In this document: positions 4,862-44,703 of the stretch, piece by piece
How the letters are laid out: every line of letters begins with the position of its first letter
Position numbering within the stretch: position 1 is the stretch's first letter
Virus record (IMG/VR): IMGVR_UViG_3300045452_000083
Location: 1-44,703 of that record
From: a virus
DNA length: 44,703 bases
Direction: 5' to 3' (one strand)
Position numbers and translations under genes: made by a program
Notes under the pieces: generated by a model
What the model was told of the DNA's origin: nothing
The model's input: only the letters and a program-made list of their open reading frames with translations
Databases searched by the model: none

Positions 4862-5245
4862 TTACCCGGCGCCAAACACCGCCGTCTCCTGCTCGGCCCA
4901 TGGCAGGTCTGCTGCAATAATCATGTCCTTGAGTGAGATTGCGGGCGCGGCGCGCTGGACCAGCAGCTTTTCCAGCACAGCCGGCGCGAGGTAAGCCAGC
5001 CTCATGGTCCGCCCGACATAGCGGTGGGTTACGCCTTCTGCGCGGGCGATGTCGTCGATCGTCGTGGCCATGCCAGTGTCAAGTTTGCGCCGCCAACTCC
5101 ACGCCTTGGCGATCGCTTTCATGACATGCGGATCGGCGCCACCAGTGTCCGGCACCATATTGGCAGGCGGCACGATCTTCGGTCGCCCGTTGCGTTTGCG
5201 TAGCTCAAGCGGGATGAACACCCTCATGGTGGTGGGGGCACTCAT
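4862..5245 (-). CDS. Small HTH protein encoded with the serine recombinase
   Basis: The 127-aa protein is the last gene of the integration operon and overlaps the recombinase stop codon (ATGA at 5245-5242). Residues ~60-95 (TTIDDIARAEGVTHRYVGRT) form a probable helix-turn-helix like those in resolvase/ParB-type accessory proteins. The N-terminal segment IPLELRKRNGRPKIV is basic. Proteins of this kind recur directly downstream of large serine recombinases in alphaproteobacterial elements, so a role as directionality factor or accessory DNA-binding protein is inferred from position only. Confidence 0.7.
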   Translation of the reverse strand: MSAPTTMRVFIPLELRKRNGRPKIVPPANMVPDTGGADPHVMKAIAKAWSWRRKLDTGMATTIDDIARAEGVTHRYVGRTMRLAYLAPAVLEKLLVQRAAPAISLKDMIIAADLPWAEQETAVFGAG

Positions 5246-6561
5246 GCTGCCAACTCCTGTTTCGGAGTGATCAGTTCGCGCACCACCGAGCCGAGGCCGC
5301 CAGTATTGAGATCAATTGCAAGTCCCTCGGCGCTGACCGTTACCCGTTCAACCAGCAGTCGTGCGATGCGCGCCTGCTCAGCCGGAAAGAAGGACTCCCA
5401 CAACCGGTCGAAGGCCGCGAGTGCAGTTACGACATCATGCTCGCCAATTTCTGGATCACTCTTGCGTGCGGCCGCTACCGCTTGCGCTGCGATTTCCGGG
5501 GTCCGCAGTAGCGCCCGGATGTGCTGGGCAACCGATGCCTCCACCATCCCAGCGTTGAGGCGCACGAACGCATCGCGGCCTTCATCAGCACGGTTCCTGA
5601 TGGCATCCATCGAGGTGTAGTAGCGGTAAAGTCGGCTGCCCTTCTTGGTCATGGTCGGGGTCATTGCGACACCGCGGTCGGTGAAGATGAGCCCCTTCAG
5701 CATCGCCGGGGTCTTGGCCCGGGTGTTGGCTGCGCGCTGGCGCGGGCTCTCTTGCAATATGGCATGCACCGCATCCCAAAGCTGCTGGTCGATGATGCCT
5801 TGATGTTCGCCGGGATAGCTCGTGCCCTTGTGGACCGCTTCGCCAAGATAAAGCCGGTTGCGGAACAGCTTGTAGAGGAACCCTTTGTCGATCGGCTTGC
5901 CGCGCTTGCTACGCACATCCTTGGCGACCAGTTCACGGGTCAGCAGCGTGGCCGAGCCCAGCTCGGTGAAACGCTGAAACACGGCCCGAACCTGCGCGGC
6001 TTCAGCCTCGTTGACGACCAGCTTGCGATCGATGACGTCGTAACCCCATGGCACGAAACCACCCATCCACATCCCCTTGGCGCGGCTGGCAGCGAATTTG
6101 TCGCGGATGCGCTCCCCGGTGACCTCGCGTTCGAACTGGGCGAACGACAGGAGGATGTTCAGCGTCAGCCGGCCCATACTGGTCGTGGTGTTGAACGCTT
6201 GCGTCACCGACACGAAGGTCACGTTGTTGCGGTCGAAGGCCTCGACCAGCTTGGCGAAATCCATCAGTGATCGCGACAGGCGGTCGATCTTGTAGACGAC
6301 GATGACGTCCACCAGACCGGCTTCGACGTCTTCCAGCAGGGTCTTGAGCCCGGGCCGGTCGAGAGTGCCGCCGGAGAAGCCGCCGTCATCGTAGCGTTCG
6401 CGCATGCAGACCCAGCCTTCCGCGCGCTGGCTGGCGACATACGCTTCGCAGGATTCCCGCTGGGCATCGAGGCTGTTGAACTCCATGTCCAACCCTTCCT
6501 CGCTGGATTTGCGGGTATAGACGGCGCAGCGCAGGCGGCGCGGTGTTGCTGTCTCCTTCAT
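5242..6561 (-). CDS. Large serine recombinase (probable prophage integrase)
   Basis: The start is the ATG at 6561 (MKETATPRRLR), overlapping the stop of the DUF2924 gene (ATGA). This gives 439 aa; upstream codons of the open frame are antisense-like. The catalytic domain shows YTRKSS with nucleophile Ser19 (Y-x-R-x-S), the spacer DMEFNSLDAQRESCEAYV, YDDGGFSGGTLDRP, and VYKIDRLSRS with its catalytic arginines. The recombinase domain follows (GFVPWGYDV, then AVFQRF..LGSAT), then a zinc-ribbon/coiled-coil region with FTDRGVAMTPTMTKKGSRLYRYYTS. That part lacks the usual Cys cluster of the zinc ribbon. It would integrate and excise the prophage by a Ser-linked mechanism. Its position at the left end of the phage genes supports an attachment site near 4800-4860. 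Confidence 0.9.
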   Translation of the reverse strand: MKETATPRRLRCAVYTRKSSEEGLDMEFNSLDAQRESCEAYVASQRAEGWVCMRERYDDGGFSGGTLDRPGLKTLLEDVEAGLVDVIVVYKIDRLSRSLMDFAKLVEAFDRNNVTFVSVTQAFNTTTSMGRLTLNILLSFAQFEREVTGERIRDKFAASRAKGMWMGGFVPWGYDVIDRKLVVNEAEAAQVRAVFQRFTELGSATLLTRELVAKDVRSKRGKPIDKGFLYKLFRNRLYLGEAVHKGTSYPGEHQGIIDQQLWDAVHAILQESPRQRAANTRAKTPAMLKGLIFTDRGVAMTPTMTKKGSRLYRYYTSMDAIRNRADEGRDAFVRLNAGMVEASVAQHIRALLRTPEIAAQAVAAARKSDPEIGEHDVVTALAAFDRLWESFFPAEQARIARLLVERVTVSAEGLAIDLNTGGLGSVVRELITPKQELAA

Positions 6562-7019
6562 GCTGCAGCCCTCTTGTTTTCGCGCAGGCCAAAGAAGCGG
6601 TAGCCGTTCCACTGCGTTCCGGTGATGTCGCGGGCGATGGCCGACAGGGACTTGTAGCGGCGGCCCTGCCAGTCGAAACCGCCCTGAAGGACCGTGATGA
6701 CATGCTCCACGCCGTCCCATTCGCGCACCAACCGGGTGCCAATGACCGGGTTGCGGGGATCGCTGATCACCGTGCTCCGGACCTTCTTGCCCTCGACCTC
6801 GTCTGCCAGTGCGTCCAGCAGCCTACTGACCGGCTTCGGCAGACCGCCATAGGTCAGTTCCTGGATCCGATAGGCCAGTCGCTGCTCGAGAAATGTCCGG
6901 CTGTTATTAGGCGGCGTTGATCCCATCAGCGTCTGCCATTCGGCTTTCAGTTCATTGACCGTCATGGCCTTTAGGCGCGCCAGCCTTGCCAGCACCGACC
7001 CGTCGTCTTGATGTTGCAT
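6558..7019 (-). CDS. DUF2924 domain-containing protein
   Basis: The 153-aa product has the hallmarks of DUF2924: LKAEWQTLMGSTPPNNSRTF, LEQRLAYRIQELTYGGL, GTRLVREWDGVEHVITVL and the C-terminal FDWQGRRYKSLSAIARDITG plus TQWNGYRFFGL. Family members almost always sit next to a large serine recombinase, as here, where the stop overlaps the recombinase start by four bases. The function is unknown; DNA binding through the C-terminal domain is plausible. The start overlaps the stop of the preceding gene (TAATG at 7021-7017). Confidence 0.92.
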   Translation of the reverse strand: MQHQDDGSVLARLARLKAMTVNELKAEWQTLMGSTPPNNSRTFLEQRLAYRIQELTYGGLPKPVSRLLDALADEVEGKKVRSTVISDPRNPVIGTRLVREWDGVEHVITVLQGGFDWQGRRYKSLSAIARDITGTQWNGYRFFGLRENKRAAA

Positions 7020-20218: not shown

Positions 20219-20295
20219 TGGTGGGCCCGGCAGGACTTGAACCCGCGACCTAGCCGTTATGAGCGGCCAGCTCTAACCAACTGAGCTACAGGCCC
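20219..20295 (-). tRNA. tRNA with CAT anticodon, probably tRNA-Ile2
   Basis: On the minus strand a complete 77-base cloverleaf is present. The acceptor GGGCCTG pairs with CGGGCCC, the D arm contains AGCTCAGTTGGTTAGAGC, the anticodon stem GGCCG/CGGCT encloses the loop CTCATAA, the T arm has GGTTCAA, and CCA is encoded. CAT can mean elongator Met or, with lysidine modification, Ile2. The GGTCGCGGGTTCAAGTCC stretch looks more like Ile2. It lies inside the phage genes and against their direction of transcription. Confidence 0.88.
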
Positions 20296-36667: not shown

Positions 36668-37575
36668 TGTCGGGGGTACTTGGTTTGCTGCTCGGATCGG
36701 GCAGCGACGAGCGGCAGATCGATCTGCCCGTCAGCTATTACTCGTGGGGCGACAAATACAGTGCTGGCGAGCAGTTCGGCGCTGATGGCGGCTATTTCAC
36801 GTCACTTGTTGGCGGGACGTTCACGCCGGCAAGTTGGCAAGGTCGTGTCATCCGCGCGGTCGCCCATGAGTATGATTTTTACGCCGCTACGTCGCGGACG
36901 CTGATCGGTCTCGACGGATACGGTTTTACGCCTGAGCCGAACCGTTTGCGGATCAACGGCACAGTCTATCCCTTGAGTGCGGGCTCGGTTTCCTGGGCGA
37001 CATACGTCACCGGGATTACCTTCAGTCCATCGCCAACCAACAACATCAACTGGACTACGCATGGGCTTGCCGTTGGCGATCCGGTCCAGTTCTATTGCAG
37101 CGGTGGTATGCCCAGCGGGCTGACGGCGTTCACCATCTACTATGTCCAGTCGGTGGTCAGTGCGAGCGCATTCAAGATTGCGGCCACACCGGGAGGCGCG
37201 GCGCTCAGCTTCACCGGCTCCGGCTCTGGCACACGCTACGGCTACAAGGACCCGATCACGGCTTATCAGGCCAACGGCACGCTGAGCGGCAATGTCTTTG
37301 CCAGCATGCTGCCGCGCGCAGCTACCATCACGATCGCCACTCCGGCGACCGTCACTTCTGCAGGCCACGGCCTGACAAACGGCAAGCGTGTCCAGTTCAC
37401 GACCTCCGGGGTGCTTCCGACCGGGATCTTCGCCAACACAACCTACTTCGTCGTCAACGCCGCGACCGACACGTTCAACCTTTCCGCCACTCTGGGTGGC
37501 GCCGCAATCAGCACGTCGGGCGGTCAGTCCGGCAGCCATGTTGTGCGCGAGGTCGTCTCGGTCACGGTCAGCTAG
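36667..37575 (+). CDS. Tail structural protein with two repeated beta modules
   Basis: ATG 36667 overlaps the previous stop (TGATG) and gives 302 aa. Two copies of a beta module are visible: residues ~115-190 (THGLAVGDPVQFYCSGGMPS, FTIYYVQSVVSASAFKIAAT) and ~218-290 (GHGLTNGKRVQFTTSGVLPT, NTTYFVVNAATDTFNLSATL). Each carries the HGL..G..VQF...G.LP.G......Y.V......F.LA.T.GG pattern that recurs in phage tail proteins. The N-terminal part is aromatic-rich. A role as tail spike or fibre subunit is likely. Confidence 0.75.
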   Translation: MSGVLGLLLGSGSDERQIDLPVSYYSWGDKYSAGEQFGADGGYFTSLVGGTFTPASWQGRVIRAVAHEYDFYAATSRTLIGLDGYGFTPEPNRLRINGTVYPLSAGSVSWATYVTGITFSPSPTNNINWTTHGLAVGDPVQFYCSGGMPSGLTAFTIYYVQSVVSASAFKIAATPGGAALSFTGSGSGTRYGYKDPITAYQANGTLSGNVFASMLPRAATITIATPATVTSAGHGLTNGKRVQFTTSGVLPTGIFANTTYFVVNAATDTFNLSATLGGAAISTSGGQSGSHVVREVVSVTVS

Positions 37576-37589
37576 AGGAAAACGGGAAC

Positions 37590-38171
37590 ATGCAGGCAGA
37601 TCGCCGGCCGACGATCACCGACGAGGTGATTGCGATCAACGACGACCTCGAGATCAACTACGGGGTGTTCAAGAACGACTTCACCTTTCGTCGGCCAGCC
37701 AACTCGTGGCGGCTCTGGCCGATGCTGGGCTTCGTGCCGCCCCGGCTCAATGCCAATATCGCTGAGATGTACCAGGCAGGCGTTGCCTGGACCCTGTGCG
37801 AGCATGTCTCGATCTGCATCAACGGATCGGCCGACTACGTGTTCGAAGGCCCTGACGGTCCGATCATCCAGACCTGGACCCCTGGCTGCCACAATGTCGA
37901 GAATGGCGGCGGCTATCTCCCGGCCGGTGAATTCACCCGGCATTTCCACGACGATTTCACACTGTGCTGCGTGGTGCAGAAGTTGAAGCGGACGCCGGGT
38001 GTTCAGTACCGGTTCGAGATTCTGACCGAGCCTAGCGTGCTCATGCAAGCCGCGCTCTTCATCCACTACGCCACCGGCCCACGCCAGCGCCAGACCGACT
38101 TCAATCCAACGCCGGGGTTCGCTGTCGATCTTGCGCCCGGTGACATCGCCATCATCTGCTCGATCCGCTGA
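37590..38171 (+). CDS. Hypothetical protein between fibre and lysis genes
   Basis: The 193-aa protein starts at ATG 37590 with GAGGAAAA upstream. It has the strand-rich core TLCEHVSICINGSADYVFEG, PAGEFTRHFHDDFTLCCVVQ and YRFEILTEPSVLMQAALFIH. There are no transmembrane segments and no recognised family. The late-operon position suggests a tail accessory protein. The His-rich stretch FTRHFHDDF could bind metal, but this is speculative. Confidence 0.7.
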   Translation: MQADRRPTITDEVIAINDDLEINYGVFKNDFTFRRPANSWRLWPMLGFVPPRLNANIAEMYQAGVAWTLCEHVSICINGSADYVFEGPDGPIIQTWTPGCHNVENGGGYLPAGEFTRHFHDDFTLCCVVQKLKRTPGVQYRFEILTEPSVLMQAALFIHYATGPRQRQTDFNPTPGFAVDLAPGDIAIICSIR

Positions 38172-38179
38172 GACCTGCC

Positions 38180-38395
38180 ATGCCCGAACAAGACCCCGCC
38201 GTGGAAATGGCGCTCATCCGTGCTGACCTCGAAGCTGTTCAGGCCGAACTCAAGGCCGTGCGCAAGGAACTAAAGGACCTGCTCGACGCCTGGAACACGG
38301 CGACTGGCGTCGTCCGCTTCGTCAAATGGCTCTCTACCCTCGTTGCCGCGATCGCGGTGATCACGGCTGCCTTCAAGGGCTTTTCCGGCCGCTAA
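38180..38395 (+). CDS. Small membrane protein of the lysis cassette
   Basis: The 71-aa protein has an N-terminal charged coiled coil (VEMALIRADLEAVQAELKAV, RKELKDLLDAW) and a single membrane segment (FVKWLSTLVAAIAVITAAFK). It directly precedes the lysin gene, so it may be a holin, antiholin or pinholin-like regulator. A one-TM protein with a coiled coil also resembles XhlA-type haemolysin accessory proteins, which is the best fit in my view. Confidence 0.7.
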   Translation: MPEQDPAVEMALIRADLEAVQAELKAVRKELKDLLDAWNTATGVVRFVKWLSTLVAAIAVITAAFKGFSGR

Positions 38396-38416
38396 CCTCC
38401 CACAGGAGAAACTCCC

Positions 38417-38953
38417 ATGAACCCTCTGCCGCCGGCCTATGGCTGGCTCGATGAACTGCGCCCATTGCCCCGGATGCTGGAAGAAGCGCGCAAGCTTTAC
38501 GGCACCTTCGAGGTGGCCGGACCTGCCAGCAATCCGCTGATCCTCGACTGGGCCAAGGAGGTCGGGCTTGCCCGGACCTACCTTGAGGATGGCATTCCCT
38601 GGTGCGGACTGTTCATGGCGGTTGTCGCCAAACGGGGCGGCAAGCCAATCGCCGAAGGTCCGCTCTGGGCGCGCAACTGGGCAAAGTTCGGCAAGGCTGC
38701 TGACAAGGCCCAGCTAGGCGATGTGCTGGTGTTCCGCCGCGGCCAGGGATCTGGCCATGTCGGGCTCTATGTCGGCGAAGATTACGGCGCCTACCATGTG
38801 CTTGGCGGCAACCAGTCTGATGGCGTGACCATCACCCGAATTGCCAAAGACCGCTGCATTGCCGTGCGCCGGCCGGCCTATCGCAAGGCGCCAGCGACCG
38901 CGAAGCCGGTCCAACTGGCTGCAACCGGCACTCTGTCCACCAACGAGGCCTGA
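38417..38953 (+). CDS. Endolysin-type peptidoglycan hydrolase, TIGR02594 family
   Basis: The 178-aa product matches the TIGR02594 pattern: WLDELRPLPRMLEEARKLYG, GIPWCGLFMAVVAKRGG with Cys63, LGDVLVFRRGQGSGHVGLYV with His114, and HVLGGNQSDGVTITRI with Asn132. This is a Cys-His-Asn triad in an NlpC/P60-CHAP-like fold. It probably cuts peptide bonds in peptidoglycan. There is no signal peptide, so it needs a holin for release. GGAG precedes the ATG and a terminator follows. Confidence 0.88.
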   Translation: MNPLPPAYGWLDELRPLPRMLEEARKLYGTFEVAGPASNPLILDWAKEVGLARTYLEDGIPWCGLFMAVVAKRGGKPIAEGPLWARNWAKFGKAADKAQLGDVLVFRRGQGSGHVGLYVGEDYGAYHVLGGNQSDGVTITRIAKDRCIAVRRPAYRKAPATAKPVQLAATGTLSTNEA

Positions 38954-38999
38954 TCAGGCCACGACCAATCCGCTGCCCCTTTGCGCAGCCGGACAACCG

Positions 39000-39024
39000 C
39001 CCGCCTTCTGGCGGGTTTTCTTTT
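39000..39024 (+). terminator. Rho-independent terminator after the lysin gene
   Basis: CCCGCC (39000-39005) pairs with GGCGGG (39010-39015) around TTCT, followed by TTTTCTTTT. The next gene's TGGAG ribosome-binding site begins right at the end of the U-tract, so the two signals are interlocked. Confidence 0.85.
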
Positions 39025-39035
39025 GGAGAACTGAC

Positions 39036-39230
39036 ATGGAAGACTTGAAGCCCTGGTGGACATCGAAGGCCATTTGGACCGGGATCATCGGCAGCATCTG
39101 GGGTGTTGCTGGCGCGATGGGCATTTTGCCGGAAGGTCTCAGCCAGGCGGACGCTCTGACCGTGGTCCTCGCGCTGACCGGCATTGGCGGCGTCCTGTTC
39201 CGCAAGACGGCAACCACCCGGATCGGCTGA
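39036..39230 (+). CDS. Holin-like two-TM protein
   Basis: The 64-aa product starts at ATG 39036 with TGGAG upstream. It has two hydrophobic helices (AIWTGIIGSIWGVAGAMGIL and ADALTVVLALTGIGGVLF) separated by a short turn and ends in a basic tail (RKTATTRIG). This is the size and layout of small phage holins that follow lysin genes. Together with the 38180-38395 protein it would control membrane permeabilisation. Confidence 0.75.
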   Translation: MEDLKPWWTSKAIWTGIIGSIWGVAGAMGILPEGLSQADALTVVLALTGIGGVLFRKTATTRIG

Positions 39231-39236
39231 CTTTTG

Positions 39237-39266
39237 GGCGGAGGTTCCGGCCTCCGCCACCCTTTT
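39237..39266 (+). terminator. Probable terminator after the holin-like gene
   Basis: GGCGGAGG (39237-39244) pairs with CCTCCGCC (39251-39258), eight base pairs with loop TTCCGG, followed by ACCCTTTT. The T-run is short and offset, so termination may be partial. Confidence 0.65.
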
Positions 39267-39282
39267 ACGAACAGGTGTAGGC

Positions 39283-39594
39283 ATGACCAAGCTGACTATC
39301 AGCCGCGGCGGCACCAGGCGGCTGCGCGCGACGCTCTATGCCGATCTCGCTGTGGGCGAAAGACGAGATCTGAGCGGCCTTTCGGCGCTGGTCGTCGATC
39401 AGAGCCCCAACATCGCGGTGCCGTCTATCACCATTCGCAACCCGCCCAATTTGGGCGAAATCGAAGTGCTTTGGACTGACGAACAGACGGCCCATCTCAA
39501 ACCAGGGGCTGGCCGTGTCTGGCTGATTATTGGTCTCGAAAATGGCGAAGGAGAGCGTGAGGTCCTGCCGGTCTTCACGTTTGATGTCGCATGA
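39283..39594 (+). CDS. Hypothetical protein, first gene of the adhesin cassette
   Basis: ATG 39283 (MTKLTISRGGTRRLRATLYA) gives 103 aa, beta-rich (VPSITIRNPPNLGEIEVLWT, GRVWLIIGLENGEGEREVLP). It overlaps the collagen-like gene by four bases (ATGA), the first of a chain of tightly spaced stop/start junctions to 43640. The small immunoglobulin-like look suggests a structural adaptor between tail and fibres. No family is named. Confidence 0.65.
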   Translation: MTKLTISRGGTRRLRATLYADLAVGERRDLSGLSALVVDQSPNIAVPSITIRNPPNLGEIEVLWTDEQTAHLKPGAGRVWLIIGLENGEGEREVLPVFTFDVA

Positions 39595-39851
39595 CGGGTG
39601 CCATCCAGATCCTGGAGACGGTGCAGACCATCGTCATCGAACCCCAGGGGATTGCTGGCCCGCGCGGCGAAACCGGCGCGACCGGCGCCCAGGGTCCTCA
39701 GGGGCCACCGGGCCCGCTTAGTGCGCTCAATGATCTTTCTGACGTCGACCTCACGCAGCCCGAAGGCGGCGATGTTCTGATTTTCTCATCCCCCGACAAC
39801 CGGTGGACCAACACGAATTCGACCAGATTGGTCGACGGAGGTAATTTCTGA
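39591..39851 (+). CDS. Short collagen-like fibre protein
   Basis: The 86-aa protein contains a perfect Gly-x-y run [20 protein letters not shown] (residues ~23-42), a collagen-type triple-helix segment. It is flanked by an N-terminal beta strand region ([14 protein letters not shown]) and the C-terminal [20 protein letters not shown], a motif that in phage fibres marks trimerising shaft segments. It is probably part of a trimeric fibre or its attachment. Its stop overlaps the next start by one base (TGATG). Confidence 0.8.
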
Positions 39852-41392
39852 TGGCCAATACCCTGCGTATCAAGCGCCGGGCCGCAGGCGGTGCGGCCGG
39901 GGCTCCGGCATCGCTTGCGAATGCCGAGCTCGCATTCAACGAGCAGGACAACACCCTCTACTACGGCACCGGCACCGGGGGTGCTGGCGGAACAGCGACC
40001 TCGGTCATCGCCATCGGCGGCCCGGGTGCCTTCGTCGGGCTCTCGGGCGACCAGACCATCGCCGGGATCAAGACCTTCTCGAGCACGATTGCAGGTTCGA
40101 TCTCGGGCAATGCCGGGACCGCCACCGCGCTGGCAACCACGCGTTCGCTCGGCCTGTCCGGCGATGTGACTGGTTCCGCATCGTTCAACGGCACCGCCAA
40201 TGCGACCATTACCGCTACCCTGGCGAACAGCGGCGTCACCGCTGGCTCCTATGGTTCTGCCACGCAGGTCGGTCAGGTCACGGTCGATGCGAAAGGGCGC
40301 GTGACCGCCGCCAGCAACGTCGCGATCATGTTCCCGGTGACTTCGGTGGCTGGTCGTACCGGTGCCATCACGCTCTCGACCAGCGACGTCTCTGAAGGCA
40401 CCAACCTCTATTTCACCGATGCCCGGGTGCGCGCCAACCGGCTCGACCAGCTGGCTGCACCTACCGCTGCGGTGGACTACAACAGTCAGCGCATCACAGG
40501 TCTTGCTGACCCGACGGCTGCCCAGGACGCAGCCACCAAGAACTACGTCGATCTGACCGTCCAGGGGCTCGATCCCAAGGCTTCGGTGAAAGCCGCATCG
40601 ACTGCCAATATAGCTTCGCTGTCTGGCACCATGACGATCGACGGCGTGGCGCTAGTGGCAGGCGACCGCGTGCTGGTGAAGGACCAGACCACGCCGTCCC
40701 AGAATGGCGTCTATGTCGTTGCCTCTGGCGCCTGGGCGCGGGCGATCGATCTCTCAACCTGGGACGAGCATGTCTCGGCGTACCTGTTTGTCGAACAGGG
40801 TGCCGTGAACGCCGACGTCGGCTACCTCTGCACGGTTGATGCGGGCGGCACGCTGGGCACAACAGCTATCACCTTCGTCCAGTTCAACGGCGCCGGACAG
40901 ATCGTCGCGGGTAATGGCCTCACCAAGACCGGCAACACGATCGACGTGGGGGCTGGCACAGGCATTGCCGTCGCCGCTGACGCTGTCGCACTGACCGGTC
41001 AGGCGCTGGCGCTCCACAACCTTGGCACCAACGGGATTATCGCCCGCACGGCCGCTGGGACTGTGGCAGCGCGCACGCTGACGGCCGGTTCGACCAAGAT
41101 CGCAGTCACCAATGGCGATGGTGTGGCGGGCAACCCTACCGTCGATGTCAACGAAGCCAACCTGACGCTGGGCAATATCGGCGGCACGCTCGGCGTGGCC
41201 AAGGGCGGCTCGGGCGCGACCACACTTACTGGCTACCTCAAGGGCAACGGCACGGCGGCGTTCACGGCGTCTGCGACCATTCCCAATACTGACATTTCTG
41301 GCCTTGGCACCATGTCGACCCAGGCTGCGAGCAACGTCGCGATCACTGGTGGCTCGATCGATGGCGTGACGCTGGACGGTGGAACCTTCTGA
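39851..41392 (+). CDS. Long tail fibre protein
   Basis: The 513-aa protein has an N-terminal module [20 protein letters not shown] and [18 protein letters not shown] that resembles the start of Mtd-like and other phage adhesins. Repeated fibre-shaft motifs follow: [69 protein letters not shown] and [20 protein letters not shown]. These are hallmarks of trimeric beta-helical fibres. The last 40 residues give no closed tip domain. The neighbouring S74 protein shares its N-terminal and shaft motifs, so the two may assemble together or be alternatives. Confidence 0.85.
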
Positions 41393-42252
41393 TGCCGAGC
41401 ACCATCCTGCTCAAACGATCCTCGATAGCCGCCAGCGTGCCTGCGGCGGCATCGCTGCAGTCGGGCGAACTTGCCGTCAATCTGGCTGACCAGAAGCTCT
41501 ATTCGAAGACCGCGAGCGGTACCGTCGTTCAGGTGGGCTTTGGCAATCTGACCTCGGCCATGGTGACGACCGCACTCGGCTTCACGCCCTACAATTCGAC
41601 CAACCCCAGCGGCTACATTACAGCCAGTGGGTCGATCACCGGCTCGTCAGGATCCTGCACCGGCAATGCCGCGACAGCGACCAGGTGGGCGACTGGGCGC
41701 ACCATTTCGCTGACCGGCGATGTGACCGGCACCAGCGCGGCATTTGACGGCTCGGCGGCTCTGTCATTTGCCGCAACACTGGCGAATAGCGGCGTGACGG
41801 CCGGAACCTATCTCAAGGTCACGGTCGATGCCAAAGGGCGGGTGACCGGCGCATCTGCGATGACGTCCGGCGATGTCACAGGGGCACTCGGGTACACGCC
41901 TGTCAACAAGGCCGGCGACAGCTTTACCGGCAGCATCTCCGTGTCTGGATCGATTACCGCGACCGGCGACATTACCGCTTATTCCGACGCCCGCCTGAAG
42001 ACTGACATCGAGACGATCACTGGCGCACTGGACCGGGTCCGCAAACTCCGTGGGGTGACCTTTAGTCGGCGCGACACAGGCAATCGCGGCGTTGGTCTTA
42101 TCGCCCAGGAGCTGGCAGCCATTGTGCCCGAGGCGGTCATGACCCATGAGGATGGCCTGCTGTCTGTCGCCTATGGCAATCTCGTCGGGGTACTGACCGA
42201 GGCCGTGAAGGACCTGGCCGACAAGGTCGATCGCCTCGAGGCCCAAGCATGA
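41392..42252 (+). CDS. Tail fibre with Peptidase_S74 self-cleaving chaperone domain
   Basis: The 286-aa protein begins with the same type of module as its neighbour (STILLKRSSIAASVPAAASL, QSGELAVNLADQKLYSK) and has shaft motifs LTGDVTGTSAAFDGSAAL and [15 protein letters not shown]. It ends in a C-terminal intramolecular chaperone domain (~196-286): YSDARLKTDIETITGALDRV with the Ser198-Asp199 cleavage pair, GVGLIAQELAAIVPEAV and YGNLVGVLTEAVKDLADKVD. S74 domains fold fibres as trimers and then cut themselves off. The catalytic Ser is present, so self-cleavage is expected. Confidence 0.9.
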   Translation: MPSTILLKRSSIAASVPAAASLQSGELAVNLADQKLYSKTASGTVVQVGFGNLTSAMVTTALGFTPYNSTNPSGYITASGSITGSSGSCTGNAATATRWATGRTISLTGDVTGTSAAFDGSAALSFAATLANSGVTAGTYLKVTVDAKGRVTGASAMTSGDVTGALGYTPVNKAGDSFTGSISVSGSITATGDITAYSDARLKTDIETITGALDRVRKLRGVTFSRRDTGNRGVGLIAQELAAIVPEAVMTHEDGLLSVAYGNLVGVLTEAVKDLADKVDRLEAQA

Positions 42253-43640
42253 CGCTGCAGAGTTCGGGGCCGATCTCGCTTGGCAACGTCGCCGTCGAAC
42301 TAGGCCGCACATCGACTACCACGACTTCACTCGGCGAGGCAGCCGTGCGGACGCTGGCTGGTGTCCCATCCGGGCCGGTCTCGCTCTCCAACCTCTACGG
42401 CAAGTCGAATGAGAGCTTCTGGTATGCGACCTTTGGCTCGACCGTGGTCAATTTTCTGATACTGGGCACGGACAGCAGCGGCAACATCTACGCCAGCGCC
42501 ACGAGCGCGGTCTTCAAATGGGACCGGGACGGCGCGCTCATCTGGGCCCGAAATGTCTCTGGGCCTTTCATCAATGGCGGCTGGATTGATGCCAGCGGGA
42601 ATGTCTACCTCGCTGGCGCCTACTACTCGAGCAACTACTATGGCTGGCTGGCCAAGCTCGACACCTCGGGAACCCTGCAATGGCAGCGCAGCCTCAACGG
42701 CTCGGGCCAGGAACTCTGGTACAATGCGGCGGTCGATGCGTCCGGCAGCGTCTATGTGGCCGGCTATTCAACATCGAGCGGTGGTTCCGGAAATGCCGAT
42801 GCGCTGATTGCCAAGTACAACAGCGCCGGCACCCTGCTGTGGCAGCGGTCGATTGGCGGCTCCGGCAACGAATATGCCAGCCAAATGGCCCTCAGCCCGG
42901 ACGGCAGCTTGCTGGTCCTTTCGGGCAACACCTCGACGTCGACTGCCGGAAATATCGACGCCCTGATCACCGTCATCAGCACGGCGACCCCGTCAGTCAG
43001 CTGGCAGCGGTCGATCGGGAGCGCGGGTTACGATTACGGCTATGGCGTTGCGGTAGACAGCAGCAACAACATCTACTGGCTCGCAGGCATCAACGGCACG
43101 CTGAGCCTGCTCAAGATCAGTTCTGGCGCTGTGATCCAGTGGCAGCTGTCCCTGCCTTCCAGCTACGGCAGTGGTTCGGTGAACCTCGGGCCCGACGGCA
43201 GCCTCCGGGTTTTTGCGCCGGTCTATGCCGGGGCGGACATCTATCAGTTTTCAACCGATGGCACCTTGTTGCTGGCCCGCACCGTCAGCCTGGACACGAG
43301 CAATGGCGCGAACTCTTTCAGCCTCACGGGTCTGGCGGTTAGCTCAACGGCCATGGTGTTCTCCATCTACACCATGATGGATTTCTCGCCCTACGGTTAC
43401 ATGGATCTGTGCGGCGCCGTCTTCAAAGTGCCAGTCGATGGTTCGAAGACCGGGACATGGTCAGTGGCTGGGGCCTCGACGCAGGGCGTAACCTACAGCG
43501 TCTCATCCCCCAGCATCGGCACCACCTTCTGGTCGCTGACCTTCCGCAGCTTCTCGTTGCTGAGCCGTTCCCTGACCGCGGGGACCCCATCCTACAGCTT
43601 TGCAGCCGGATCCTACACCAACACCACGATCGGGGTCTGA
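42249..43640 (+). CDS. Beta-propeller-like adhesin (SBBP/PQQ-type repeats)
   Basis: The 463-aa protein starts with a short fibre-type module (ISLGNVAVELGRTSTTTTSL, SLSNLYGKS). It continues as repeated ~50-residue units with the pattern D.SGN.Y..G.....D....K....G...W.R: DSSGNIYASATSAVFKWDRD, DASGNVYLAGAYYSSNYYGW, DASGSVYVAGYSTSSGGSGN, DSSNNIYWLAGINGTLSLLK. This is the SBBP/PQQ-like propeller repeat. A propeller at the end of a fibre cassette is likely the receptor-binding tip. The last third degenerates into Ser/Thr-rich strands. Confidence 0.75.
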   Translation: MTLQSSGPISLGNVAVELGRTSTTTTSLGEAAVRTLAGVPSGPVSLSNLYGKSNESFWYATFGSTVVNFLILGTDSSGNIYASATSAVFKWDRDGALIWARNVSGPFINGGWIDASGNVYLAGAYYSSNYYGWLAKLDTSGTLQWQRSLNGSGQELWYNAAVDASGSVYVAGYSTSSGGSGNADALIAKYNSAGTLLWQRSIGGSGNEYASQMALSPDGSLLVLSGNTSTSTAGNIDALITVISTATPSVSWQRSIGSAGYDYGYGVAVDSSNNIYWLAGINGTLSLLKISSGAVIQWQLSLPSSYGSGSVNLGPDGSLRVFAPVYAGADIYQFSTDGTLLLARTVSLDTSNGANSFSLTGLAVSSTAMVFSIYTMMDFSPYGYMDLCGAVFKVPVDGSKTGTWSVAGASTQGVTYSVSSPSIGTTFWSLTFRSFSLLSRSLTAGTPSYSFAAGSYTNTTIGV

Positions 43641-43643
43641 CCC

Positions 43644-44324
43644 ATGATTATTTCGCACGACCGCCAGACGCTGTTCATTGGCGTGCCAAAGAATGGTTCG
43701 CAGACGGCACGGGCCGTACTGGGTCAGATCGGGGTCGACCTGGTTGGCGAGCTAGGGCGGCATCCGACAGTGCCGGAAGCGATCAGGTTGGCTGAAGGGC
43801 TGTTCCCGGGCGAGACGATCGCGCCGACGGCGATCTACGCCTTCTGGCGGGATCCGGTTGAACGCTTCTGCTCGGCAGTCGAGTTCCACAAGCGCTGCCT
43901 GCCGAATTCGTTCATGCAGCTATTCTCGGATCGGTTTGTCGGCATCGAGCCACATCCACGATGGTTTGAGCCTGATCCCGAAGCAATCGCCCAAGATTTG
44001 CGCGCGGTGATCAAGAGCATCCCGCCACTGGACATCCTTGCGGCATTGCCGCCGCCGCCCGTTCCAGGTGTTTCGTCCCAGCCCCGGGGCGGCAATCTCA
44101 GTTTTTATCGGCTGCAGTCGGAGTGGCTAGATGATCCTCGAGTTACCGTGCTGCCCTTTGCAGACTATGAGGCCGGGCTGCGAGAGATTGTCGATTGGTT
44201 TGGCGGGGATGGTGTCTCGGTAGAGATACCCCAGATCAATGCCGCGGCAGGCCCGTTGCGCGAGCTGAGCATGGACGAAGCAGAATCGGTTCGTGCCTAC
44301 TATGCAGGAGATTTGCAGCTATAG
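43644..44324 (+). CDS. Sulfotransferase-like protein
   Basis: The 226-aa product opens with FIGVPKNGSQTARAVLGQIG, which matches the 5'-phosphosulfate loop (P-K-x-G-S/T-x-T) of PAPS-dependent sulfotransferases. It then has YAFWRDPVERFCSAVEF (RDPVERF, residues 69-75), the 3'-phosphate-binding RDPxxR motif with the correct spacing. The later part is less conserved. It would transfer sulfate from PAPS to a sugar or other acceptor in the cytoplasm. It lies four bases after the propeller gene and belongs to the late operon, which is unusual cargo for a phage. Confidence 0.8.
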   Translation: MIISHDRQTLFIGVPKNGSQTARAVLGQIGVDLVGELGRHPTVPEAIRLAEGLFPGETIAPTAIYAFWRDPVERFCSAVEFHKRCLPNSFMQLFSDRFVGIEPHPRWFEPDPEAIAQDLRAVIKSIPPLDILAALPPPPVPGVSSQPRGGNLSFYRLQSEWLDDPRVTVLPFADYEAGLREIVDWFGGDGVSVEIPQINAAAGPLRELSMDEAESVRAYYAGDLQL

Positions 44325-44331
44325 TTGGCAG

Positions 44332-44703
44332 ATGAACCGAGACGACGAAAAGCGCATTGCTGCCAAGATGGCGAAAACGCTCGCGATGATGTGCGTCCGC
44401 AACACCGGCCTCGAAACTCTGCATGCGGGCATAGTCCCGGTTACCCATGCAGGGGACTATTCGGACGTCCGCGTCATTGATGCCGATGGGCGCGAGATTG
44501 GATGGAATGCTGTCTCCCACCTCGACGACGATCAGATGCGCGCGCTGATGAAGGAAATCGTCAACCGGCTTTACACGTTCAACATCTCAATCGATGACCA
44601 TGAATTTCGCGATCGGGTTGATCGATGGGCCAGGATCGCCGACCGCTGGGACGAGCCTGATGAGGACATCGCCTTTTTCCAGAGATTGGCGGCGGAGGAC
44701 TGA
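44332..44703 (+). CDS. Conserved hypothetical protein at the window end
   Basis: ATG 44332 (MNRDDEKRIAAKMAKTLAMM) gives 123 aa; a start at 44293 would overlap the sulfotransferase gene. CVRNTGLETLHAG, GDYSDVRVIDADGREIGWNA and DDQMRALMKEIVNRLYTF are well-formed helical and beta blocks. I know similar small proteins from alphaproteobacterial islands, with no assigned function. It ends exactly at the window edge with TGA. It could be the first host-side gene or a last phage gene. Confidence 0.7.
   Translation: MNRDDEKRIAAKMAKTLAMMCVRNTGLETLHAGIVPVTHAGDYSDVRVIDADGREIGWNAVSHLDDDQMRALMKEIVNRLYTFNISIDDHEFRDRVDRWARIADRWDEPDEDIAFFQRLAAED

Follow-up and report, generated by a model that had tools for sequence, protein, structure and literature searches.

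The open reading frame at 43644..44324 (+ strand; ATG start, 226 aa) encodes a protein which is assigned to the Sulfotransfer_2 family as a divergent member, unambiguously on profile comparison against nulls and with support from AlphaFold modelling and Foldseek comparison. It is found directly behind the receptor-binding genes of a sphingomonad prophage. The window, that is, the whole stretch of DNA analysed, is a complete IMG/VR virus record of 44,703 bases. Judged from its sequence, the product is very probably an enzyme that attaches sulfate to another molecule. Sulfotransferases of phages are already known, and the one described here is a new, divergent and tail-linked example. The gene is set apart by its divergent subfamily, which is missed by single-sequence searches, and by its constant position within an operon for receptor binding.

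Identification of a divergent Sulfotransfer_2 protein

Single-sequence searches with the ORF (Pfam, PHROGs, PDB and tblastn against INPHARED) gave nothing significant. When 14 family members were searched against Pfam, none rose above the cut-off, the best values being 0.065 for Sulfotransfer_4 and 0.32 for Sulfotransfer_2, and the cyanophage galactose-3-O-sulfotransferase family phrog_3347 was matched weakly (E 0.13). Profile comparison gave a clear assignment. As measured by hhalign, alignment A1, consisting of 14 rows taken from related prophages, matched cellular Sulfotransfer_2 proteins from sphingomonad genomes with E-values of 1.5e-10 and 3.6e-10, and a set of 79 viral sulfotransferases with an E-value of 7.7e-14. 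The hhalign probability was 96.7-98.1% across the Sulfotransfer_2 targets, against at most 2.9% for column-shuffled or reversed versions of A1 (40 per target). Two single proteins bridge the remaining distance. The cellular protein L038 is recognised by PF03567 (E 5e-17) and aligns pairwise with the 226-aa protein (E 4e-10), while the intermediate viral relative L284, found through a DNA pattern for RDPVERF and lying outside the deep alignment A4, aligns over 208 residues (BLASTP E 2e-25, 31% identity).

With the 91-sequence alignment A4 (12 family rows and 79 other viral sulfotransferases), AlphaFold produced a model with a pLDDT of 88.7 and a pTM of 0.87; with close relatives only, the pLDDT was 42. 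The top 13 Foldseek neighbours in the PDB were all sulfotransferases (best E 0.012). The best viral model, A0A6J5KNV5 of BFVD, labelled as 'sulfotransferase family', was matched with an E-value of 3e-13, a TM score of 0.75 and 31% identity, and the structure of the cyanophage galactose-3-O-sulfotransferase with an E-value of 2e-5. The model depends partly on the sulfotransferase hypothesis, because A4 was built with sulfotransferase queries; the profile nulls and L284 are support independent of the assembly of A4. A profile search with A4 among solved proteins retrieved heparan sulfate 2-O- and 6-O-sulfotransferases and also SULT-type small-molecule enzymes, and no tyrosylprotein sulfotransferase.

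PAPS-binding motifs and selection

The original prediction of a sulfotransferase carrying two PAPS-binding motifs is borne out by the profile matches, the fold and the conserved residues; the predicted model, which might have lacked a PAPS pocket, shows the sulfotransferase fold. The roles of the 5'-phosphosulfate loop, the catalytic His and the 3'-phosphate motif are established in heparan sulfate 2-O-sulfotransferase, and PKNGSQT, His40 and R69-D-P71-x-E-R74-x-x-S77 of the prophage protein align with the corresponding sites of that enzyme. PKNGSQT (residues 15-21; 43686..43706, + strand) fits the loop pattern PKxGxx[ST] and is invariant in the 12 family rows of A4 and in 14 relatives, and among the other viral sulfotransferases P15 is kept in 79/79 and K16 in 76/79. 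His40 (43761..43763, + strand), presumed to be the catalytic base, matches the second His in the HGH of the 2-O-sulfotransferase (4ndz profile alignment) and is found in 12/12 family rows and 76/79 other viral sequences, or 88 of all 91. The putative 3'-phosphate-binding motif RDPVERFCSA (residues 69-78, with RDPVERF at 69-75; 43848..43877, + strand) fits R-x-P-x-x-R-x-x-S, and every one of the 91 A4 sequences has R69, P71 and S77.

The reading frame is kept in 13 further full-length relatives at 71-89% identity, among which PK-x-G-S-x-T, H40, R69, P71 and S77 are invariant. The overall dN/dS is 0.18, with values of 0.055 for residues 1-45, 0.11 for residues 46-110 and 0.23-0.28 for the C-terminal half. 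Comparative sequence evidence thus confirms the ORF as a conserved gene, beyond chance. Distances calculated from the N-terminal and C-terminal halves are uncorrelated (Mantel r -0.25), a pattern that fits recombination within the gene. The more variable C-terminal half is perhaps the acceptor side.

Broken copies were found in 3 of 18 loci. Those of L008 and L019 are cut, apparently by insertion sequences, and that of L007 is truncated and fused. At L007:10449-10944 the sulfotransferase ends after approximately residue 151 and is joined to the terminal part of another S74 fibre (75% identical), downstream of which a second propeller starts. This arrangement may reflect duplication of the fibre cassette, two prophages having recombined, or an assembly error.

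Organization of the prophage

The late region to the left of the ORF is siphovirus-like, with terminase, portal, protease, capsid, tape measure, endolysin, holin, S74 fibres and beta-propeller. A large serine recombinase, the presumed integrase, lies at the left end (5242..6720, - strand; PF00239 E 1e-37, PF07508) with a DUF2924 neighbour, and a secretin/TPR gene further left looks like host DNA. A Mu-like prophage, an idea raised by the variable flanks, was rejected on the presence of this recombinase. A tRNA-Met(cat) gene (20219-20295, - strand) is located inside the prophage, between the replication genes and the ParB-methyltransferase/terminase genes.

A strong intrinsic terminator (38999..39016, + strand; GCCCGCC-TTCT-GGCGGGT followed by a T tract) separates the endolysin from a small holin-like membrane protein (39036..39230, + strand), the latter assigned by reading the sequence (MEDLKPWWTSKAIWTGIIGSIWGVAG...). 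The stem and T tract are kept in 11/11 prophages, and the loop and flank vary. The receptor-binding cassette follows on the + strand. It begins with a 136-aa protein with no function assigned and an uncertain start codon (39184..39594), which overlaps the next gene by 4 nt and is approximately 60% identical in relatives. A small collagen-like protein with a 20-residue repeat stretch (39591..39851), a 513-aa fibre or head-decoration-like structural protein (39851..41392; phrog_2647 E 2e-49) and a tail fibre with a C-terminal S74 intramolecular chaperone (41392..42252; PF13884 E 3e-15, tail fibre PHROGs) come next. The last cassette protein before the sulfotransferase is a beta-propeller repeat protein (42249..43640; SBBP repeats, phrog_8401). 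The gene had been described as following the cassette by four bases; 3 nt (43641-43643) intervene between the propeller stop and the sulfotransferase ATG, and the ORF begins on the fourth base, which matches that count. The junction TGACCC/ATG, or a near variant of it, is conserved among relatives. An optional 123-aa ORF of no known family follows the sulfotransferase (44332..44703, + strand). It is present in approximately half of the relatives, being absent from L004, L005, L006, L013, L017 and L018, and its dN/dS is 0.12 (six copies).

Genes from approximately 39184 to 44703 overlap or lie at most 7 nt apart, and from the cassette through the sulfotransferase they keep the same strand, gaps of -4 to +3 nt and the same order in all relatives compared. 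The conserved terminator separates endolysin and holin, so that 'late' expression is inferred from gene order only. No sigma-70-like promoter was found in 37500-44703, which is a weak test, and the cassette and sulfotransferase may be transcribed by read-through from the late promoter or from a promoter of their own. An APS kinase domain was found in 8/9 host genomes, in a frame of approximately 640-730 aa as expected of CysNC; therefore, PAPS should be available in the cytosol of most hosts.

Distribution among related prophages

About 16 related prophages of sphingomonads, whose flanks differ, carry the sulfotransferase behind one and the same fibre cassette. The relatives comprise 7 viral contigs and 11 genome loci in 10 genomes, among which L002 and L010 are apparently one prophage, L003 and L012 are near-identical, and the contig of L018 starts inside the sulfotransferase, its upstream side lying outside the contig. 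The succession of beta-propeller and sulfotransferase was seen in 7/7 viral contigs found. Because most of the genome loci are single species representatives or MAGs and several are of the same lineage, the approximately 16 prophages do not represent 16 independent events. Most hosts are sphingomonads, as had been supposed, and the carriers include Sandarakinorhabdus cyanobacteriorum TH057, Novosphingobium arvoryzae KCTC 32422, N. meiothermophilum SYSU G00007 and Sphingobium sp. DEHP117. The gene is rare: one search, of a set that included genomes already known as carriers, detected it in 3 of 401 Sphingomonadaceae genomes.

DNA past the sulfotransferase, or past the optional 123-aa ORF, differs among relatives and includes a LysR regulator, BREX genes, a DpdE/HNH island and metal-resistance-like genes. 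The same position next to different flanking DNA rules out ordinary host flank sequence. The association with the cassette across relatives supports the original placement of the gene in the prophage, which does not end at 43640. In whole-prophage comparison, structural genes are mostly 90-99% identical, the sulfotransferase is 72-89% identical, and the integrase is only approximately 60% identical; early genes and the protease are exchanged in some relatives. L249, L250 and L252 share the upstream tail genes and have neither fibre cassette nor sulfotransferase, with restriction or helicase genes instead; therefore, the gene travels with the fibre cassette. Rivra and Shpa, the cultured relatives that come closest when portal proteins are compared, showed no sulfotransferase in the stretches read. 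The correlation between the sulfotransferase and propeller distance matrices is only weak (r 0.37, p 0.09), and the constant position may be simple linkage.

Antiphage or restriction genes repeatedly adjoin the right end of this prophage lineage. The BREX genes PglX, PglZ and BrxL are found there in L004 (10648-19742), and DpdE/DrmMI-like and HNH genes in L016 (11065-20526), with L017 (10722-20246) alike by eye. In L249 (DrmD/BrxH-like helicase), L250 (type III R-M and HKD-Snf2) and L252, defence genes follow the lysin/holin genes, at the place of the fibre cassette and sulfotransferase. The right-end genes may be cargo or may reflect a shared integration site. Two remnants, L218 with L217 in genome G002 and L223 in G007, have lost head and replication genes and keep the integrase, fibre cassette and an intact sulfotransferase.

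Comparison with other sulfotransferases

The bacterial short proteins of Pfam Sulfotransfer_2 (PF03567; L038, L039 and L046) share with the prophage protein a full-length profile match, the MI[IV]SH start, PK-x-G, the catalytic His, R-[DN]-P-x-x-R-x-x-S, and a C-terminal N and Y-x-x-D. Pairwise identity is 29%, over the N-terminal half only, and the prophage protein, which falls below detection by the Pfam model, has the extra segments R-W-F and R-x-G-N-L-x-F-Y of its own. The cellular genes at L038:2135-2734 and L039:521-1162 adjoin aspartyl/asparaginyl beta-hydroxylase-like genes, as seen by eye. Heparan sulfate 2-O- and 6-O-sulfotransferases (4ndz, 5t03) share the PAPS motifs, the His position and the Sulfotransfer_2 profile, with weak Foldseek E-values; however, they are Golgi enzymes with additional acceptor-binding parts.

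Sulfotransferases are present in cyanophages, Stenotrophomonas phage DLP6, OM43 phages and many IMG/VR contigs. Outside the sphingomonad prophages, the nearest relatives are A0A6J5KNV5, from an uncultured Caudovirales phage, and L284 and L309, from large viral contigs, each at 31% identity; the genes of L284 and L309 do not follow tail genes and sit in a tRNA-like stretch, close to an ORF that by eye resembles a 2OG-Fe(II) oxygenase. The galactose-3-O-sulfotransferase of Synechococcus phage ACG-2014f (phrog_3347) shares the Sulfotransfer_2 family and the RDP motif and lies within a cluster of sugar epimerases and glycosyltransferases, whereas no sugar gene was recognised in the prophage window. 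The DLP6 protein, an annotated phage sulfotransferase related to L038, differs in its genomic setting of clamp-loader and DNA polymerase genes. In a survey of 92 viral sulfotransferases, the upstream neighbour was in most cases another sulfotransferase, a sugar gene or one of a mixed set; another sulfotransferase was the commonest named family (10 members), and tail genes were not prominent among the 25 commonest families listed. This survey, with the contexts of DLP6, ACG-2014f and L284, rules out a general tail linkage of viral sulfotransferases. The literature searched yielded no phage sulfotransferase of this type that has been characterised, several matches being PAPS reductases named sulfotransferase, and a 2023 study states that sulfotransferase function in phages remains unclear (PMC10580990).

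Proposed function and alternative explanations

The protein is proposed to be a cytosolic, PAPS-dependent enzyme of the Sulfotransfer_2 (carbohydrate sulfotransferase) type, which would be co-expressed with the fibre cassette for receptor binding in a siphovirus-like sphingomonad prophage that has a serine integrase, probably after induction, with PAPS supplied by the host CysNC route. By homology, PKNGSQT would hold the 5'-phosphosulfate and R69 and S77 the 3'-phosphate of PAPS, and His40 would activate the acceptor hydroxyl. The most likely acceptor would be a glycan or glycolipid destined for the host surface, at a precursor stage in the cytosol, and the added sulfate would alter the receptor seen by the phage's own fibre cassette, giving less re-adsorption of progeny or less superinfection by the same type. 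An effect on adsorption of the same phage type, through sulfate added to the precursor of a host surface glycan, is favoured tentatively, somewhat short of an even chance, because the family is of carbohydrate type and the gene is linked to those for receptor binding. The protein shows no evident signal peptide, and the genes of the window that were profiled include no recognisable glycosyltransferase or other sugar gene; therefore, the acceptor should be either a host-made cytosolic precursor or a virion protein. Since most viral relatives are not beside tail genes, the link to adsorption comes from the present lineage only. Since the gene is coupled over 3 nt with a structural one, expression in the resting lysogen is less likely; if it is expressed late, little time would be left for surface remodelling. 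The broken copies, the rarity of the gene and possible simple linkage also count against this explanation.

The virion branch of that choice is the main competitor. The enzyme might sulfate a virion component encoded in its own operon, with the beta-propeller, rich in Ser and Tyr (5.6% Tyr, 16.6% Ser), or the fibres as the most plausible substrates, and so tune the binding surface of the phage. The fixed adjacency to the propeller gene across the 3-nt gap, the late co-expression, and a cytosolic location that suits an assembling virion protein are all consistent with this, and an analogy exists in Xanthomonas, where RaxST and its substrate RaxX share one cluster (PMC6637879). However, the solved relatives retrieved are glycan or small-molecule enzymes, and L284, the nearest viral relative, is not beside tail genes. 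To our knowledge, carbohydrates are the substrates of all the Sulfotransfer_2 enzymes that have been characterised, and virion sulfation is not known to have been described for any bacterial virus. Virion sulfation is considered possible but not probable. The fuller scenario, a phage lineage whose dedicated sulfotransferase, fixed in the receptor-binding operon, modifies its own propeller or fibre and thereby controls adsorption, seems unlikely.

The position of the gene also bears on lysogenic conversion, in which an unrecognised promoter would drive expression in the lysogen and the altered host surface would benefit both host and prophage. The last place near the prophage end is a common moron position, and the deletion remnants in G002 and G007 retain the gene with integrase and cassette; the negative result of the weak sigma-70 promoter test, the translational coupling to a structural gene and the interrupted or decayed copies in L008 and L019 make this reading doubtful. 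Sulfation of a small molecule or other non-surface target, such as a metabolite, toxin, antibiotic or nucleotide, would reduce the proximity to fibre genes to linkage. It would accord with the SULT-type enzymes among the A4 profile matches and with the place of the DLP6 gene among replication genes, but it is quite improbable, since the gene stays with one fibre cassette throughout, even as integrase, protease and early genes are exchanged. That the ORF is not an enzyme at all, being a degenerate sulfotransferase fold or host DNA outside the prophage, could be suggested by the missing direct Pfam match and the faster-evolving, mosaic C-terminal half. It is highly improbable, as the catalytic residues are kept, purifying selection is strongest at the PAPS site, and the position is the same in all relatives despite different flanking DNA.

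Sulfation of a host surface-glycan precursor thus stands as the preferred, tentative reading. What phages sulfate, and any role of this in adsorption, become directly testable here, because a single cassette-tied gene is present in named, sequenced strains. The prophage lineage offers a chance to address the purpose of phage sulfotransferases in cultured strains.
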